Shown here one piece after another: positions 52,366 through 60,441 of a stretch of 64,000 nucleotides of DNA. Under the pieces are notes generated by a model, which did not search any database, was not told where the DNA came from, and saw only the letters and a program-made list of their open reading frames with translations. A program made the translations under genes and the position numbers. Every line of letters begins with the position of its first letter. Within the stretch, counting starts at the first letter, position 1. Origin of the DNA: Thermoplasmatales archaeon (GTDB lineage Archaea; Thermoplasmatota; Thermoplasmata; Thermoplasmatales; Thermoplasmataceae); contig DAHXNF010000032.1 in NCBI GenBank assembly GCA_027366585.1, positions 1 through 64,000 of the forward strand. The letters run 5' to 3'.

Positions 52366-52588
52366 TCAGGTTAATGCTATTCCTAAATTTATGTTGTTCC
52401 AGATATTTCTCTTCAACATTTTTCACATCTAAGATGTTAAACTGCATTTGTCAGACAATATATAATTGTTATACCAAGGTTACAAAATCAATAAAGGTTG
52501 GTCTCTGCTCGCCACATAATAGAAATATTTAAATATTGATATACATTATGATTTATGCGTTAACAGGCATTTGTCAGACGGGTGTAAA

Positions 52589-55500
52589 ATGATCATTGAA
52601 TCAGTGGAACTGGACAATTTCAAATCGTTCGGCAATAAGAAGAGGATACTTTTCCGTGACGGCTTCACCGTGATCACTGGACCCAATGGAAGCGGAAAGA
52701 GCAACATAGGTGACGCAATGCTCTTTGTTCTGGGCATAAGATCCTCGAAGGCAATACGTGCGGATCGTCTCCCAGATCTTATACATAAAGTTGCACCAGG
52801 AAAGAAGCAGGGGACAAGTTGTTCTGTGACGATTGTCATGGATTCCCAGGACAAGTCGCAGCCGGAGGAGGAACGCAAGACCCGGATAACAAGGGAGATT
52901 TCTGTAGACGATAACCAGGAATGCAAGAGCACCTATTACATAAACGGGAGCAAGGCGAAGAGGGGGGACGTTGAAACAATCCTGGATAATGCACAGATCT
53001 ACCTGGATGCATACAGTTTTGTTCTCCAGGGCGATATCAACAACCTTGTCAAGATGACGGGTACAGAGAGAAGAAAGCTTCTTGAGTCAATAGCCGGAAT
53101 CGAGAATTATAATATTCAGATAGAAAAAGCCCAGTCTGATATAGATGGAATTGAGGATAATCTTTCCAAGATACAGATACTCATTGACGAAACGCAGAGG
53201 CGTTCAGATCAGCTTGCTGAGGAGAAGAAGAACGCAGAGCGATACAATGAGATTACAGCAAGCATTGGATCGCATGAAGCAACCCTGCTGCGCATAGATC
53301 ATATATCCGCTGAGAGAGAGCTGGCAGCTTACACAAAAAGCATGCAGGAGATAGACGGACAAATCACTGCATCAAGACAGAAGATCAGCGACCTGCAAAA
53401 CAGGATCTCGGAGACTGAAAGCACGATCGTGAGAGTGGAAGAAGAGAAGAACAGGTTTGGCGGGGATGAACTGAAGAGAGTTGTGGATTCAATTCGTGAC
53501 TTGACGCTTCAGAAGGCCAAGGAAGAGATCAACCTCGACAATCTTCGTGACGATATTGTGTCCTTCGAGGGGAAGATAAAAGACCTGAATGCCAACAATG
53601 AGTTCCTCTCTAAGGATATTGAAAAGTTAAAAAAAGAGGCAGACAGGCTGAAGAGTTCTGTTAAGGAAGATGAGAAGAGGATTGCAGAATTTACAGCGAG
53701 CCTCGATGCTTTGAGGTCAAACGCGAAGGTAAGTTCAAAGGCCTTTACAAAGTACAGACTGGAAATGGAGGCAATTGATGCAAAGATTCTCAAGGCAAAT
53801 TCACAGATCATTGCAACTTCTGATAAGGAATCAAATGTAAAGTCCCAGAGGGAGAAGATCCTTTCGGATCTCAGGCATATGGAGAGCAGGGAGTCAGACA
53901 CGCTTCTGGAACTTAACGATGCAAAGTACAAGATTGACAGCGTAGAGAAGGATGCTTCTGGAAGCAAGAAGGCATACGATGATCTGAACCAGAAGTACAT
54001 TGCTCTTAGGAAAGCGGTTTCAGACGGAGACCGGAAGAAGGATGAACTGAACAGGCAGCTGGTTGAACTCACAAAGGAATATGAAAAGCTTTCAAGTATG
54101 CTCTCCCGCTCGTCACAATCTTCGAGAACATTTTCGGCTATCCTCGAAGCGAGGGCCTCAGGCGAACTCACCGGGGTGCACGGCCTGGTAAAGGATCTTG
54201 TAAGCTATGACCCTAAGTTCCAGATGGCTGTGCTTTCGTCAGGCGGTTCCAGGCTGAATTCTGTTGTTGTCGAAGATGATTCGGTGGCCGAGCAATGTCT
54301 TAACATACTGAAACGCAAGAAGGCGGGTAAGTTGACATTCCTGCCGATGAACAAGATGCTGAACGGAAGACCAAGGGCGAAGGCGATAATGGTCCGCAAT
54401 TCAGGAGAAAGCCTTGGATATGTCTTCGAAAACGTGAGTTACGACAAGAAATATGAAAACATAATCTGGTATGCATTCCAGGACTGCCTGATTCTTCCGG
54501 ATGTTGCTACCGCAAGGAGGCACATGAGCGGAGTTCGTCTCGTTACACTAGATGGAGATATCTTCGAGGCAAGCGGCGCCATTACCGGCGGCTTCTCAGA
54601 GAGGAAGGAGGAAACATCGGAAAGGCGCATAATGGAAGTCTCGGAGCAAATGACCCAGACTTCTGAGGATCTGGAGAAGGTAAAAACCAGGCTCGAATCT
54701 GACAGGATCGAGCTTGATGCTGTTACCACCCAGCTGTCAACAAGCTCTAAGAAAATAGGATCAGGATCGTCGCAGGTCGACATGTACATAGAGATCCGGG
54801 ACAGGGCTTCGGCTGATCTGGAAAAAATCAAACAGGAATTAACGAAGCTTAAAACAGATCTGAAAAAAGAGGAAGACCAGATTACAGAGATCCAGGAGGA
54901 AAGGTCTCAATTCGAATCTGATATTGCGGATCTCAACAAGGAGAGAGATACAATCGCCGCAAAACTGTCTGAAATATCGCCTGAATCAATGGAAAAGGAA
55001 GGAGAACTTGAAACCAAACTTGCTGAACTGAGGCAGGAAAGGGAAAGCCTGGTATCCGCACTTTCAACAACAATGTCGGACCTCAGGATCCAGGAAAAAA
55101 TATTCTCAGACCAAGGGATCGCGATCACTGACTACGAGACCCAGATTGGTTCGAAGAAGCAACTATCGCTAGAAATTGAGAAAAAGCTCAGGCAGATCCA
55201 GTCGGATCTCGAAAAGAGCAAGCTGATTGAAGAGCAGCTCAACTCTAAGGCAAAGGAATATAATGACAGGATCAACTCGCTCAACATTGAGCTGCAGTCT
55301 CTTCGCGGAAACGTGGAAACTGCAAACGCAATGATACGAAGTTACGAGGATAACCGGCTTAACACATCACTTAGAATCCAGTCAATCAACGAAAAAATTC
55401 AGCAGATAGACGCACAGATTGCTGACTGCAGGTTCTCTCCGGTCGACACAGGTATGTCTGTTGTTGAGATAAAGAGGACAATCACATCGCTTCGCAAGGA

Positions 55501-56122
55501 GATAGAATCTCTTGGAGCGGTAAACCAGCTTGCGATCAAGGAGTACGAGGAAGAGACTGCTAGACTCAGAGAGCTCACGGAAAAAACGGCAAGACTCAGG
55601 GAAGAAAAGGCAACACTTGAAAGCATGATGGAAGAGCTTAACAGCAAGAAAAGAACAGTGTTCCTGGATCTTTATTATAAGATAAATGAATCGATGCAGA
55701 ACATCTACTCGGTATTATCGGAGGGTGGGGAGGCAAGGCTGGATCTTTCGGACATGAATGATCCACTCAACTCAGACCTCTACATACGGGCGAGACCAAA
55801 AGGCAGCACGTTCAGCAAGATAGAAGCACTGAGCGGCGGAGAAAAGAGCCTTACTGCAATTTCGTTCATCCTGGCTGTGCAGAGGATCAAGCCATCTCCT
55901 GTATACTACCTGGATGAGATTGATATGTTCCTTGATGGAGCAAATGCTGAGAGGATTGGAAAAATGTTTAGCGAGAACGCAAAGTATTCGCAGGTTTTGA
56001 TGGTATCCCTTAAGAAGGCAATGCTCAAGTATGCTGACAACTTGATTGGTGTCACAACGCTTGATGAGGAAAACAGTGAGGTCTACTCCAAGGATTTCGA
56101 CTCAGGAGGGGTGCAGCCATGA
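52589..56122 (+). CDS. smc: chromosome segregation ATPase SMC
   Basis: A 1177-residue protein from ATG 52589; the frame is open to a TTG at 52571. Walker A is GPNGSGKSNIGDAM near the N-terminus. Two long coiled coils flank the hinge (about residues 505-640, beginning TGVHGLVKDL and including LTFLPMNKM). The C-terminal head has the signature LSGGEKSLTAISFIL and Walker B with YYLDEIDMFLD. It forms the dimer that organises and segregates the chromosome with the kleisin ScpA encoded next. The stop overlaps the scpA start in ATGA. Confidence 0.96.
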   Translation: MIIESVELDNFKSFGNKKRILFRDGFTVITGPNGSGKSNIGDAMLFVLGIRSSKAIRADRLPDLIHKVAPGKKQGTSCSVTIVMDSQDKSQPEEERKTRITREISVDDNQECKSTYYINGSKAKRGDVETILDNAQIYLDAYSFVLQGDINNLVKMTGTERRKLLESIAGIENYNIQIEKAQSDIDGIEDNLSKIQILIDETQRRSDQLAEEKKNAERYNEITASIGSHEATLLRIDHISAERELAAYTKSMQEIDGQITASRQKISDLQNRISETESTIVRVEEEKNRFGGDELKRVVDSIRDLTLQKAKEEINLDNLRDDIVSFEGKIKDLNANNEFLSKDIEKLKKEADRLKSSVKEDEKRIAEFTASLDALRSNAKVSSKAFTKYRLEMEAIDAKILKANSQIIATSDKESNVKSQREKILSDLRHMESRESDTLLELNDAKYKIDSVEKDASGSKKAYDDLNQKYIALRKAVSDGDRKKDELNRQLVELTKEYEKLSSMLSRSSQSSRTFSAILEARASGELTGVHGLVKDLVSYDPKFQMAVLSSGGSRLNSVVVEDDSVAEQCLNILKRKKAGKLTFLPMNKMLNGRPRAKAIMVRNSGESLGYVFENVSYDKKYENIIWYAFQDCLILPDVATARRHMSGVRLVTLDGDIFEASGAITGGFSERKEETSERRIMEVSEQMTQTSEDLEKVKTRLESDRIELDAVTTQLSTSSKKIGSGSSQVDMYIEIRDRASADLEKIKQELTKLKTDLKKEEDQITEIQEERSQFESDIADLNKERDTIAAKLSEISPESMEKEGELETKLAELRQERESLVSALSTTMSDLRIQEKIFSDQGIAITDYETQIGSKKQLSLEIEKKLRQIQSDLEKSKLIEEQLNSKAKEYNDRINSLNIELQSLRGNVETANAMIRSYEDNRLNTSLRIQSINEKIQQIDAQIADCRFSPVDTGMSVVEIKRTITSLRKEIESLGAVNQLAIKEYEEETARLRELTEKTARLREEKATLESMMEELNSKKRTVFLDLYYKINESMQNIYSVLSEGGEARLDLSDMNDPLNSDLYIRARPKGSTFSKIEALSGGEKSLTAISFILAVQRIKPSPVYYLDEIDMFLDGANAERIGKMFSENAKYSQVLMVSLKKAMLKYADNLIGVTTLDEENSEVYSKDFDSGGVQP

Positions 56123-56883
56123 GGATCGATGAGGTGCTTCAGAGTATTACTGTACAGGGTACACTTCTTGACCTTGACACCGGGCTTTACAGGCGCATTC
56201 TTGCAAAGGAGGAGAAGCACAAGGCGCCAAATGAATTTGTCTGGGTCGTGACCGAGGTTGTGAACAAGTGCGAACTGGGGCAGATGGACCCATGGGATAT
56301 TGATCTTATTGCCCTCACAAGGCTGTTCGCAAATTCAATGAATGAAACCAGTCCCAATTTCTCTCTTGCAGGAAGATTCATAGCGGAATCCTGGAAGTTT
56401 CTGTTCGAGAAATCCAGGGATCTGCTCACTTCCAAGGAACTGGTGTCTGATGATCCTGAAGCCGAGACTGCCGAGGAAATTATCGCAGGGATTGAAAGTA
56501 TCATACAGGTAAAGCCGCGCATCTATCACCAGGAGAAAAGGAAGATCATGCTTCTGGAAGTGCTGGAAAGCATGCGTTCACTTTACCAGAGACCGTCCTA
56601 CACCAGGCAGGTCCCCGGAATGAAGGAGGAGTTCCCGCAAAGCTCCATAGAGGAGATCATTGTTGAGTTGAACGCAGAGGAACCAGAGGTGGAGAAGATG
56701 AAAATCCTGCAGTTTATAGCTGATTACGGATCCTCGATGCTGATGGAGGAGGTCTGGGGCTTCTCCAAGGGAGAAATGAGCTCTTTCTTCCAGTATTCAC
56801 TCTTCCTTGCAAAAGAAAGGAGGATTGCCCTCCACCAGAATGAACCTTACGGGCAAATCCGGATAGAAGTGCTTGATGGTTAA
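56119..56883 (+). CDS. scpA: segregation and condensation protein A (kleisin)
   Basis: A 254-residue kleisin. The N-terminal helical part includes NKCELGQMDPWDIDLIALTRLF, which binds the SMC neck. The middle is acidic and flexible, and the C-terminal winged helix (FIADYGSSMLMEEVWGFSKGEMSSFFQYSLFLAKERRIAL) caps the other SMC head. It is coupled to smc by a four-base overlap. A ScpB gene does not follow; instead the next genes encode a membrane-anchored Cas4-like nuclease pair. ScpA closes the SMC ring. Confidence 0.92.
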   Translation: MRIDEVLQSITVQGTLLDLDTGLYRRILAKEEKHKAPNEFVWVVTEVVNKCELGQMDPWDIDLIALTRLFANSMNETSPNFSLAGRFIAESWKFLFEKSRDLLTSKELVSDDPEAETAEEIIAGIESIIQVKPRIYHQEKRKIMLLEVLESMRSLYQRPSYTRQVPGMKEEFPQSSIEEIIVELNAEEPEVEKMKILQFIADYGSSMLMEEVWGFSKGEMSSFFQYSLFLAKERRIALHQNEPYGQIRIEVLDG

Positions 56884-57128
56884 TGCCGGAAAAAGATGTT
56901 AGTGCATCGGAAGTTGCAGAATATGCCTTTTGCAGCGTTTCCTGGTACATGGACAAGGAAGGATATCGCAGGTCAGGTTACGCAAATACAAGGATGACTA
57001 CCGGAAAGATAATGCATCGCCGCCTTGAGACCAGGGTCAGGAGGTCCAGGGTATCCGCGAGAGCATATGTGATCCTGGCAGCTGTCATGGGAATCCTAAT
57101 CATTGCATACATAATGGGTGCATTCTGA
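56883..57128 (+). CDS. N-terminal half of a split, membrane-anchored Cas4/RecB-like nuclease
   Basis: An 81-residue protein whose start overlaps the scpA stop by one base (TAATG). Residues 7-17 (SASEVAEYAFC) match the opening of Cas4 and Dna2-like nucleases, with Cys17 in the place of the first Fe-S cysteine, and G41...H45 in TTGKIMHRRLE matches the RecB motif I (GxxxH). The basic segment RVRRSR then leads into one membrane helix (about 61-78), and the protein ends. The other nuclease motifs lie in the next gene, so the two products probably assemble. I do not know of a described family with this split; a single ancestral gene broken at the helix hairpin is the likely origin. Confidence 0.72.
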   Translation: MPEKDVSASEVAEYAFCSVSWYMDKEGYRRSGYANTRMTTGKIMHRRLETRVRRSRVSARAYVILAAVMGILIIAYIMGAF

Positions 57129-57640
57129 TGAATATCCTTATCCTCCTGCTTCTGATCCTCGCATTCGCAGTCGTGATCTTTCTTGTTTTCCGATCCTTCA
57201 GGACTTCTGTGAGATATTCTATCCCGAAGGGAACTCAGATCTATGGAGACCTGATATCAGAAGGCAAGCTCCTAAGGTCGAACAGGTTTGCACTGACTGG
57301 TAAGCCGGACAAAGTGGTTATGTCAGGAAAGCAGGTCATTCCCTATGAATACAAGAGCACAAACGCCGATCGCCCAAGGGAAGGGCATATGCTGCAGATG
57401 GGAGTCTACTTCATCATACTCGAGGAAATGTACCCTGACAAGAAAATCCCGTATGGAGTACTCAGATACAGGGAACAGGCCTTCAGGATCGACAACACTC
57501 CACGGATCAAGAGCGCAGTTCTCGAGATCACCCGGCAGATCAGGGGCACTTATGGCGTACCTGTGAGGAACCACTCCAATTCAGGCAAGTGCTTCCATTG
57601 CTCTTTCAAGGAAGGCTGTGTGCAAAGCTTAATTAGGTGA
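57128..57640 (+). CDS. C-terminal half of a split, membrane-anchored Cas4/RecB-like nuclease
   Basis: A 170-residue protein starting in TGATG, overlapping the previous stop by one base. A membrane helix (about 2-20) comes first, then a PD-(D/E)xK core: D61 in LTGKPDKV, E74-Y75-K76 in IPYEYKST and Q90...Y94 in LQMGVYF. Three cysteines C155, C158 and C164 near the end complete a Cas4-type Fe-S set with Cys17 of the partner. Both proteins would face the cytoplasm at the membrane. Cas4-like proteins are exonucleases; placement after smc and scpA suggests DNA processing or segregation, not CRISPR, and no cas genes are present. Confidence 0.75.
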   Translation: MNILILLLLILAFAVVIFLVFRSFRTSVRYSIPKGTQIYGDLISEGKLLRSNRFALTGKPDKVVMSGKQVIPYEYKSTNADRPREGHMLQMGVYFIILEEMYPDKKIPYGVLRYREQAFRIDNTPRIKSAVLEITRQIRGTYGVPVRNHSNSGKCFHCSFKEGCVQSLIR

Positions 57641-57659: not shown

Positions 57660-58703
57660 ATGCAGCAGATTGACCTATTGAAGCGGAACATGGTTGAGGT
57701 CGTTACAGAGGAGGAGCTTTCTTCAATGAAGCTCTCATCTGCAAGAGGCTACATCGGCTTTGAGCCTTCCGGAATACCACATCTTGGAACCGGCCTATTA
57801 TGGCCAAAGAAGATTAATGAACTGGTCTCGCTCGGAGTGGATTTCCAGGTCCTGCTTGCCGACTGGCACGCATTTGTCAACAACAAACTATCGGGAAACA
57901 TTGACAGGATCAGGGAGAGCGGAAAGATCTTCAAGGAAGGTATGCGCGCCATGGGCCTGAGCGACAAGGTCCGGTTCATCTGGGCATCGGATTTGGTGGA
58001 TTCCGGCGAATATTTTACAACGCTGATTAAGCTGGCGAAGCATACTTCCCTTTCAAGGCTGAAGAGGGCGCTGCCGATCATGGGCAGGGTTGAGGGCGAC
58101 GCCGAGAAGGATTTCAGCATGTACATCTACCCCATCATGCAGGTTACCGACATTTCGGTAATGAACGTTGACATAGCGCTTGGCGGGATGGATCAGAGAC
58201 ATGCCCACATGCTCCAGAGGGATATTGCCGACAAGTCCGGGATAAAGAAGGTCTCGGCAATACATGGACCGTTGCTTGGAAGCCTTAAGGGCCCTGGCAG
58301 GATGGATGCATCCCCGGATGGAGAGATTGTAAAGATGTCCAAGAGCGACCCGGACTCTGCGATTTTCATATTCGACTCGGAAGCCTCGATAAGAAGGAAG
58401 CTGTCGGCAGCATTTTGCCCTATTGGAGAAGTTAAGGGAAACCCCGTGATGGACATTGCAAGGCACATCATCTACCCGTATTACCAGAAGGAGTTAATGA
58501 TACACAGACCGGTCAGCAAGGGAGGCGATTTCGTTTACCATGACTACGACGATCTTGAGGCAGAGTACATTGCCAAGAGGGTACATCCCATGGATCTCAA
58601 GGCAGCCGTAGGAGAAGTCCTGGTTGAAATGCTCGGGCCAGCCCGTTCAATATACGAACAGTACGAGGAGGAAATGCGGGATCTTGGATATACATCGCAG
58701 TGA
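57660..58703 (+). CDS. tyrS: tyrosyl-tRNA synthetase
   Basis: A 347-residue class I synthetase, archaeal type. The N-terminus has GYIGFEPSGIPHLGTG, with the tyrosine-binding tyrosine and the HxGH equivalent. DVNVDIALGGMDQRHAHML provides the D-x-x-Q residues that read the substrate tyrosine; these and the short overall length distinguish it from tryptophanyl enzymes. The KMSKS loop is KMSKSDPDS (about 225-233). It follows the nuclease pair by 19 bases and may share the long smc operon. Confidence 0.93.
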   Translation: MQQIDLLKRNMVEVVTEEELSSMKLSSARGYIGFEPSGIPHLGTGLLWPKKINELVSLGVDFQVLLADWHAFVNNKLSGNIDRIRESGKIFKEGMRAMGLSDKVRFIWASDLVDSGEYFTTLIKLAKHTSLSRLKRALPIMGRVEGDAEKDFSMYIYPIMQVTDISVMNVDIALGGMDQRHAHMLQRDIADKSGIKKVSAIHGPLLGSLKGPGRMDASPDGEIVKMSKSDPDSAIFIFDSEASIRRKLSAAFCPIGEVKGNPVMDIARHIIYPYYQKELMIHRPVSKGGDFVYHDYDDLEAEYIAKRVHPMDLKAAVGEVLVEMLGPARSIYEQYEEEMRDLGYTSQ

Positions 58704-58719
58704 TCCATCAATTATCTAT

Positions 58720-59739
58720 TCAGAAGAAACTCTCTAACCTTGACTGGGTGGCTGAACCCGCGAAGTCCCTTATCTTTTCCACATATGGGATGACCCTCTC
58801 CTCCGAAAAGGAGCGCTCCTCACAGAGATATCTTACAAGGGACTTCTCATCGGGTTTCTCAAACTTGATTTCTGGACTCCTGACAGATGGGGGATTCCTG
58901 AAAAGTTCCATGATCTCATCCAGTTTTTCTATTTCTACGCCCCTGGACGCAAGCGCAGCCTTTATGTTTCCATGCTTCTTTATGAGATTGAGGGCAGTTT
59001 TTGCGCCAACACGATCTACCCCCTTGTTAAAATCGGTACCAACCATTATGCCGATCGAAATGAGTTGCTCCTGACTTATGCCGTTGATGCGAAGAGTTTC
59101 CTCAAGATCAAGGTATTCCGGCGTTATATTTACATAAAAATTCTTCCCTGGGATTTTTCTCCTTCCGTTGGAAACGAAATTCCTGAATACAATCTTTGCA
59201 CCGAAGAGGAGGCAGTCATAATCCTGTGACACCACTGCATTAACGAGGCCAAGGCGACTGAGCATTGAAGCCTGAGCCTCCCCCTCTGAAGGCGCCATTA
59301 TTACCGGGATGCCCATGAGTTTCAGGAGGTGAACTGACTCATGGATAATCTCACTTGTAATGTAGTTGATTCTTGATGACAGGGATCGAACGCGCTCTTC
59401 TTCACCCAATTCCCTTGCCTGCTCCAGCTCTGCAATATGCTTTTCCCTCATCAGCTTCCTTTCCGCAATGGTCTGATCCTTTAGGCTGCTAGGCTCGCCG
59501 TCAAAGACGTAAACGGGTCTTATGGCATTATCCATGAATGTAATAGTTCTATAGAATAGGCCTGAAATGTGGGAGGTAATTTTTCCGCTTGAATCCTTCA
59601 GCGGTGTTCCGTCGGGCTGCCTTATGTTACTCAGGAATTGGTATATTATGTTGTAGGCGTCGACTGCGACAACGCTCCCCTTTTGTTCCTTGAGGGTTGT
59701 CGGGTGCCTGGCAACAATATCTGATATGTCAACACCCAT
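58720..59739 (-). CDS. fen: flap endonuclease FEN-1
   Basis: A 339-residue structure-specific nuclease. The N-domain starts MGVDISDIVARH and has active-site acids in VAVDAYNIIYQFL and VFDGEPSSLK; the internal domain has the acid cluster APSEGEAQAS and VSQDYDCLLFG; the helix-hairpin-helix region is GTDFNKGVDRVGAKTAL. The C-terminal TQSRLESFF is the PCNA-binding box. It removes 5' flaps during replication and repair. The radB gene lies six bases upstream on the same strand, giving a small DNA-repair operon. Confidence 0.95.
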   Translation of the reverse strand: MGVDISDIVARHPTTLKEQKGSVVAVDAYNIIYQFLSNIRQPDGTPLKDSSGKITSHISGLFYRTITFMDNAIRPVYVFDGEPSSLKDQTIAERKLMREKHIAELEQARELGEEERVRSLSSRINYITSEIIHESVHLLKLMGIPVIMAPSEGEAQASMLSRLGLVNAVVSQDYDCLLFGAKIVFRNFVSNGRRKIPGKNFYVNITPEYLDLEETLRINGISQEQLISIGIMVGTDFNKGVDRVGAKTALNLIKKHGNIKAALASRGVEIEKLDEIMELFRNPPSVRSPEIKFEKPDEKSLVRYLCEERSFSEERVIPYVEKIRDFAGSATQSRLESFF

Positions 59740-59745
59740 CAGGAC

Positions 59746-60441
59746 TCACCTGCACTCAAGACCTTCACCGGTTATTGCGAAATTCAACGACCTTCCCTCC
59801 TCGATGGAGCGATGCTTCATAATCGTGGCCTTTCTCAATCCACCTTCAAGCTTTTCAAGCTTTATTATTGCCTTCACCGAATGATCAATGACGAAGCCCC
59901 CGAATGGCTGGATCTGCCCCCGATCAATATCCTGGTAGATCTGGTTCGTTATCAGCGTTGGAATATTGTATATAGAAATCAGGGAAAGAATAGTTCCCAG
60001 TTGTTTCTGGAATCCGGCAACACGGGACTGATAGTCATTTCCGGTTTCCAGGCGAAAATATTCTGTGAAGGAATCAATTATTAGGGCACCCGGTGACTTT
60101 ACCTTCTCCATGAGTTTATGAACCCTGAGCAGCGACAGCTCCTGATCTTCAAGGCTATTAAGGCGGAACAGGGCGATGTTGTCATATATATCTGAACGCG
60201 CCACTGACATCTGCCTGAATCGCTCTATTGAAAAACCCTCGGAATCCAGGTAGAAGACCCTTCTCCCCTGTGACGCAGTGTTGATAGCAAACTGCATGCA
60301 TATATTTGTCTTGCCTGAACCTCCTTCGCCAAAAAGCTCGGTGATCACACCATGCTCAATACCGCCGTTCAGGAAAGAGTCAAGGCAGCCGAGGCCGACA
60401 GGTGATCTTCCAGGACTCTCGTTGAGTTCTATTTTCTGCAT
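59746..60441 (-). CDS. radB: DNA repair and recombination protein RadB
   Basis: A 231-residue RecA/Rad51-fold ATPase without the N-terminal HhH domain of RadA, which defines RadB. Walker A is GEGGSGKTNICMQFA (about 38-52), Walker B is GALIIDSFTEYFRLE, and TLITNQIYQDI matches the DNA-binding loop region. RadB is an archaeal recombination mediator that assists RadA. It is followed closely by fen. Confidence 0.94.
   Translation of the reverse strand: MQKIELNESPGRSPVGLGCLDSFLNGGIEHGVITELFGEGGSGKTNICMQFAINTASQGRRVFYLDSEGFSIERFRQMSVARSDIYDNIALFRLNSLEDQELSLLRVHKLMEKVKSPGALIIDSFTEYFRLETGNDYQSRVAGFQKQLGTILSLISIYNIPTLITNQIYQDIDRGQIQPFGGFVIDHSVKAIIKLEKLEGGLRKATIMKHRSIEEGRSLNFAITGEGLECR

Follow-up and report, generated by a model that had tools for sequence, protein, structure and literature searches.

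The chromosome segregation gene smc of an acid-loving archaeon is followed by its partner scpA and then by two short reading frames that, taken together, read like a Cas4 nuclease. The question raised is whether these frames encode the two chains of one enzyme or are the broken copy of a single gene, and what such an enzyme would be doing next to SMC. The window analysed here is positions 1 to 64,000 of the forward strand of contig DAHXNF010000032.1, from the Thermoplasmatales archaeon (Thermoplasmataceae) assembly GCA_027366585.1. An initial annotation had placed the two frames, here called ORF1 and ORF2, at 56883–57640, with one-base overlaps between scpA and ORF1 and between ORF1 and ORF2. 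The coordinates hold, and both overlaps can be read directly in the sequence. The features of the locus are as follows.

52571–56122, plus strand: smc, encoding the chromosome segregation ATPase, at the head of the run (TIGR02169, 870.9 bits against a cut-off of 729.4); its TTG start, from the ORF list, is unsure
56119–56883, plus strand: scpA, kleisin-type SMC partner, overlapping smc by 4 bases and named mainly from position and length
56881–56885, plus strand: TAATG, one-base overlap of the scpA stop and the ORF1 start
56883–57128, plus strand: ORF1, 81 residues, predicted N-terminal half of a Cas4-type nuclease with a C-terminal membrane helix
56931–56933, plus strand: C17 of ORF1, first predicted Fe-S cysteine, invariant in 29 homologues
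57003–57017, plus strand: motif I of ORF1, G41xxxH45, with G at least 90% and H invariant as aligned in 29 homologues
57069–57125, plus strand: membrane helix 1, ORF1 residues 63–81, predicted N-in/C-out (19-residue Kyte–Doolittle mean 2.64)
57126–57130, plus strand: TGATG, one-base overlap of the ORF1 stop and the ORF2 start
57128–57640, plus strand: ORF2, 170 residues, predicted C-terminal half of a Cas4-type nuclease with an N-terminal membrane helix
57134–57190, plus strand: membrane helix 2, ORF2 residues 3–21, predicted N-out/C-in (19-residue Kyte–Doolittle mean 3.64)
57308–57310, plus strand: D61 of ORF2, motif II aspartate, invariant in 29 homologues
57347–57355, plus strand: E74-x-K76 of ORF2, catalytic pair, at least 90% in 29 homologues and lost only along with the motif I histidine
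57395–57409, plus strand: Q90-xxx-Y94 of ORF2, RecB-family motif, invariant in 29 homologues
57590–57619, plus strand: C155-xx-C158-x5-C164 of ORF2, predicted Fe-S cysteines 2–4, invariant, catalytically degenerate members included
57660–58703, plus strand: tyrS, tyrosine--tRNA ligase (PRK08560, 396 bits against a cut-off of 220)

In the profile search, the scpA product has two Pfam matches, both under cut-off (Rad21_Rec8, E 0.00066; SMC_ScpA, E 0.026). Past tyrS, on the minus strand at 58720–60441 of the window, two genes look by eye like FEN-1 and RadB, so that the smc operon would have DNA repair genes beside it.

Motifs and membrane helices of the two frames

Cas4-type nucleases have been studied as soluble CRISPR or repair enzymes. 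The traits of the Cas4/Dna2 type are a D/E-x-K core, a Q-xxx-Y motif, a motif I histidine and cysteines in a 1 + 3 pattern, and all are present here, divided between the two frames. The initial annotation assigned C17, G41 and H45 to ORF1, ahead of its helix, and D61, E74–K76, Q90–Y94 and C155/C158/C164 to ORF2. Across 29 homologues, each of these residues is either invariant or reaches at least 90% conservation. The motif I histidine, though invariant as aligned in the 29 ORF1 homologues, is truly lost in 5 of 47 pairs, which are taken up below.

The profile matches of the two halves are complementary. Against the curated cas4 model TIGR00372, ORF1 covers positions 2–62 of 180 (E 5.9e-05, score 23) and ORF2 positions 56–179 (E 2.7e-14, score 53.4), neither half alone reaching the cut-off of 65. 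ORF1 also matches positions 2–52 of 247 in Pfam PDDEXK_1 (E 5.3e-04), and ORF2 matches Pfam Cas_Cas4 (PF01930) at 33.2 bits, exceeding the cut-off of 22.7. These spans agree with the earlier count of exactly one complete Cas4-type set, and by motif and profile the match of the joint set to Cas4 is well beyond chance.

The gene break lies in the loop between the two membrane helices, as had been proposed. Five K/R occur in the 15 residues preceding helix 1 and none after it; there are none ahead of helix 2 and four in the 15 residues after it. This pattern is repeated among the relatives, where the outer helix ends have zero K/R in 37 of 37 pairs and the inner flanks average 3.9 and 4.5 K/R. 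From these counts, both soluble catalytic parts should be cytoplasmic.

Conservation of the split

The initial annotation allowed that the split might be a sequencing artefact, and proposed a genome survey for one-gene and two-gene versions. Both versions exist, and the artefact fails. In what follows, f1 is the window's own family, and L and G numbers are individual loci and genomes. Of 117 genomes searched in the order, 67 have an ORF2 relative. The split pair occurs in 48 species-level genomes of f1, spread over 12 of its 19 genera, and scpA, ORF1, ORF2 and tyrS follow one another on one strand in all 47 readable loci, the 48th being at a contig end; tyrS is downstream of the pair in 48 of 48. 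This gene order is kept across the 12 genera at about 45–55% protein identity. The frame of ORF2 relative to ORF1 is 0, 1 or 2, varying by genus, and in relatives with an ATG start, the ORF1 stop and ORF2 start are at most 4 bases apart. Recurrence in 48 genomes with three different frame offsets means that the split is not a sequencing error. Rough dN/dS values within the window's genus are about 0.01–0.06 for ORF1 and 0.02–0.09 for ORF2, with several dS near saturation, and by this measure the pair is under purifying selection.

The varying frame also bears on how the two chains are made. Programmed frameshifting or readthrough was considered as a general mechanism and rejected, since the frames are 0, 1 and 2 among the genera and no common slippery site was seen. 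Coupled reinitiation suits the pair, given the stop/start overlaps and the varying relative frame.

Two adjacent frames might also be left by a frameshift, by faulty assembly or by the decay of a nuclease once encoded in a single gene. This explanation would agree with the existence of unsplit relatives and with the five pairs that lack catalytic residues. It would also fit the locus L085, where a 79-residue one-helix ORF stands alone between scpA and tyrS without ORF2 (L085:1398-1637 in reverse-complement locus coordinates); this ORF is a probable remnant of the pair. We give this explanation next to no weight for the family at large, since 48 independent genomes are split in three frame offsets with the stop and start within a few bases, dN/dS is low, and all 11 motif positions are intact in both genes of 42 of the 47 pairs. 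For the window's copy it is refuted; L085, and perhaps the degenerate lineages, are the only cases in which decay is plausible.

The unsplit relatives are found phylum-wide. A profile of the unsplit form detects relatives, split and unsplit counted together, in 286 of 400 genomes of the class and in 127 of 194 genomes of a sample of the phylum. The deep survey is of this one phylum, and a pattern scan across the whole genome collection returned close relatives only. The unsplit proteins differ in the number of their membrane helices: L148–L151 have two, most of those in the class have four (a structure model of this form has pLDDT 84.5), and the 511-residue open frame of L152 (G450, family f43) has about eight predicted helices inside the nuclease domain. 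Whatever the number, from two to eight, the insertion always follows the motif I helix and precedes the core. In two of the unsplit genes, L039 and L040, the motif I histidine is replaced by Q, and the D and E-x-K are kept.

Split pairs are also found beyond f1, in families f2, f5, f15 and f48, and three genomes (G005, G038 and G039) hold a split pair plus an unsplit gene. In trees of the core, the split pairs of f1, f2, f5 and f48 fall together (support 84) and those of f15 are placed separately; a single clade of all split forms was not rejected by the AU test (p 0.52). The unsplit ancestor would already have had the membrane segment after motif I and before the core, and fission of the gene within the outer loop would have yielded the overlapping, translationally coupled pair.

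Evidence for a proposed shared active site

In one relative, L008, the two ORFs are in frame with one TGA between them, and reading through gives a protein of 254 residues. This read-through aligns residues 6–248 to positions 1–246 of 247 in PDDEXK_1 (49.7 bits, cut-off 22) and scores 85.5 against TIGR00372, above the cut-off of 65. An AlphaFold2 model of it, from an alignment in which the ORF1 rows were cut ahead of the membrane helix, has a mean pLDDT of 91.5 and a pTM of 0.87. It consists of a 48-residue helix (33–80) running from motif I into the membrane, a return helix (87–114) and then a mixed beta core. The best Foldseek match in the PDB is Cas4 8d3l, with a TM-score of 0.66 by target over 277 columns, a length that must cover both halves; further Cas4 and Dna2 structures come next. 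Since a single joined chain was modelled, the halves are necessarily in one molecule, and the model shows compatibility, not association. The proposal that the halves could dock as a hairpin is supported by this confident fold and by the opposite topology of the two helices.

The five pairs that depart from the full motif set give a second line of evidence. In L050, L051, L113, L114 and L109, ORF1 has lost its histidine and, together with it, ORF2 has lost both E and K, and all four cysteines have been kept. One-sided loss of catalytic residues was seen in 0 of 47 pairs. The degenerate pairs belong to two tree lineages, L109 in one and the others in the second, with L114, which is not in the tree, grouped by a motif sequence nearly that of L051. 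Concerted loss of His, E and K with the cysteines kept is what is expected from one active site and one cluster that are both shared, and on the residue patterns, a single active site appears to be common to both halves.

Putting together the complementary profiles, the L008 fold, the concerted losses and the helix topology, we place a probability of roughly 0.8 on the reading that ORF1 and ORF2 are two polypeptides of one membrane-anchored, probably [4Fe-4S] PD-(D/E)XK DNA nuclease of the Cas4/Dna2 (RecB) kind. The earlier description of a split Cas4/RecB-like nuclease with one active site is upheld to that extent. Sequence and modelling bear out the composite domain, the conserved split and the topology pattern; the Fe-S cluster, the heterodimer, nuclease activity and a substrate are what these features predict. 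In the proposed arrangement, ORF1 would give the first cysteine and the motif I histidine and end in a membrane helix; ORF2 would open with a membrane helix and give the D/E-K core, the Q-Y motif and the other three cysteines. Pairing of the helices as a hairpin would then bring both parts together on the cytoplasmic face. In its split form, the enzyme would thus occur naturally as two chains, and its active site would be assembled only on pairing of the two membrane helices.

Degenerate pairs retain both helices and the position next to smc-scpA. That five pairs persist without catalytic residues means either that cutting is not the sole thing selected or that these pairs are in decay. The pair may do more than cut, perhaps also binding DNA at the membrane, with decay as the alternative. 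If they do bind DNA, the catalytically dead, cysteine-keeping members would be a natural separation of cutting from DNA binding.

Relatives and possible roles

Cas4 (PF01930/TIGR00372; 8d3l, 4ic1, 4r5q) is the best profile and fold match to the pair, sharing the PD-(D/E)XK core, the motif I histidine, the Q-Y motif and the 1 + 3 cysteines. It differs in that the pair has membrane helices between motif I and the core, is encoded by two genes and lies outside any CRISPR locus. Dna2 and the MGME1/RecB-type enzymes (5ean, 5zyv) have the same nuclease fold, with weaker matches than Cas4; Dna2 too carries an Fe-S cluster. The pair lacks a helicase domain, and the Dna2 and MGME1/RecB-type enzymes lack the membrane segment. 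No description of a membrane or split Cas4 was found in the open-access literature searched, a set outside which most subscription papers fall. A phylum-wide Cas4 family with helices inside the nuclease domain would put DNA-end processing at the membrane. The enzyme's probable role would be to shorten or degrade DNA ends on the cytoplasmic side of the membrane, whether those of entering, damaged or lagging chromosomal DNA.

That the pair is simply the Cas4 of a CRISPR adaptation system is highly improbable, even with Cas4 as its best profile name. Its neighbours are smc, scpA and tyrS, and cas1 was not found in the window's genome, which is 85% complete. Among well-sampled genomes, G089 and G086 have the pair without cas1, and G060, G043 and G095 have cas1 without the pair. 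The tree separates the CRISPR Cas4 of the window's order from the pair, with a weak support of 79 and with an outgroup row, L141, on a very long branch that may not be a true Cas4. We rejected CRISPR Cas4 on the missing link to cas1 and on this separate, weakly supported placement.

The initial annotation had proposed a nuclease linked to SMC, with putative stoichiometric expression alongside SMC-ScpA read from the overlaps. The part of this that stands is the adjacency, with the order smc-scpA-ORF1-ORF2-tyrS in 47 of 47 readable f1 loci from 12 genera; the part that does not is any general link. Adjacency of the pair to smc-scpA is seen in f1 only. The pairs of f2, f5, f15 and f48 adjoin PAC2-like, DUF2240-like, L24e-like and other genes (names read from the sequence), and the unsplit relatives in other families have unrelated neighbours too. 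The pair is dispensable, having been lost in several genera, and several genera keep smc-scpA without it, with other genes following; absences in the moderately complete draft MAGs are soft, and those keeping smc-scpA alone include complete genomes (1,564,906 and 1,584,804 bp). A subunit of SMC-ScpA would be found wherever smc-scpA is, and adjacent to it, which is not the distribution seen. The Smc complexes of archaea have been described as binary, with Smc and ScpA (PMC7055376), and in SMC-ScpA(-ScpB), the genes of which adjoin the pair in one run, a nuclease pair is no known subunit.

It is therefore unlikely that the pair acts within the SMC-ScpA machinery, as a membrane nuclease or DNA tether where SMC-ScpA loads or segregates the chromosome. 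The constant gene order and the one-base overlaps in the window speak for such a role, and the degenerate pairs, which still have the four cysteines, both helices and their position in the operon, could be read as membrane tethers that bind DNA; yet tyrS is an equally constant neighbour. A fuller version is less likely again, namely that the pair would be a membrane anchor and DNA-end processor for an SMC-ScpA loop extruder, with the non-catalytic lineages serving as a pure Fe-S tether of DNA to the membrane. The conserved operon in f1 may all the same offer a starting point for asking what the SMC complexes of archaea encounter at the membrane.

A role in defence or DNA clearance, as a membrane solo-Cas4 destroying foreign DNA on entry, is possible, and we regard it as doubtful. 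Solo-Cas4 genes of archaea are Cas4 relatives outside CRISPR loci, mostly inherited vertically, for which uncharacterised roles in defence or repair have been suspected (PMC5704561, Hudaiberdiev et al. 2017). They are single soluble polypeptides, whereas the pair has two genes with a membrane helix in each. In the main text of that paper, Thermoplasma, SMC and a split gene go unmentioned and the word "membrane" is used once; so far as that text goes, neither anchoring in the membrane nor fission of the gene appears to have been described. The nearest profiles being Cas4, the suspected roles of solo-Cas4 and a place at the inner membrane face, which would suit incoming DNA, all favour defence. 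However, the pair is inherited vertically, keeps its site in the chromosome and is under purifying selection, which sets it apart from most defence genes, and its presence does not track cas1. No virus relatives were found in IMG/VR, by pattern scan, or in phage records, and a virus origin was rejected on the same searches.

An equivalent pair on Bacillus subtilis plasmids also favours defence. Three such plasmids have an annotated Dna2/Cas4 gene, of 162 residues in the two examined. In NZ_OX419581.1, the 162-residue protein opens with a membrane helix, and the hypothetical gene of 81 residues immediately upstream of it carries the motifs SASEI..YC and GTKYH, with a membrane helix at the C terminus (the pair is L164:1185-1923). 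In single pairwise comparisons with the window, the 162-residue protein is 28% identical to ORF2 (E 1e-15) and the 81-residue protein is 36% identical to ORF1 over 44 residues (E 3e-07). By sequence comparison, the plasmid pair would be the product of either transfer or a parallel split. It lies between a helicase gene region and hfq; CP120602.1 is annotated with the same order, and NZ_OX419568.1 has an ORF2-like gene.
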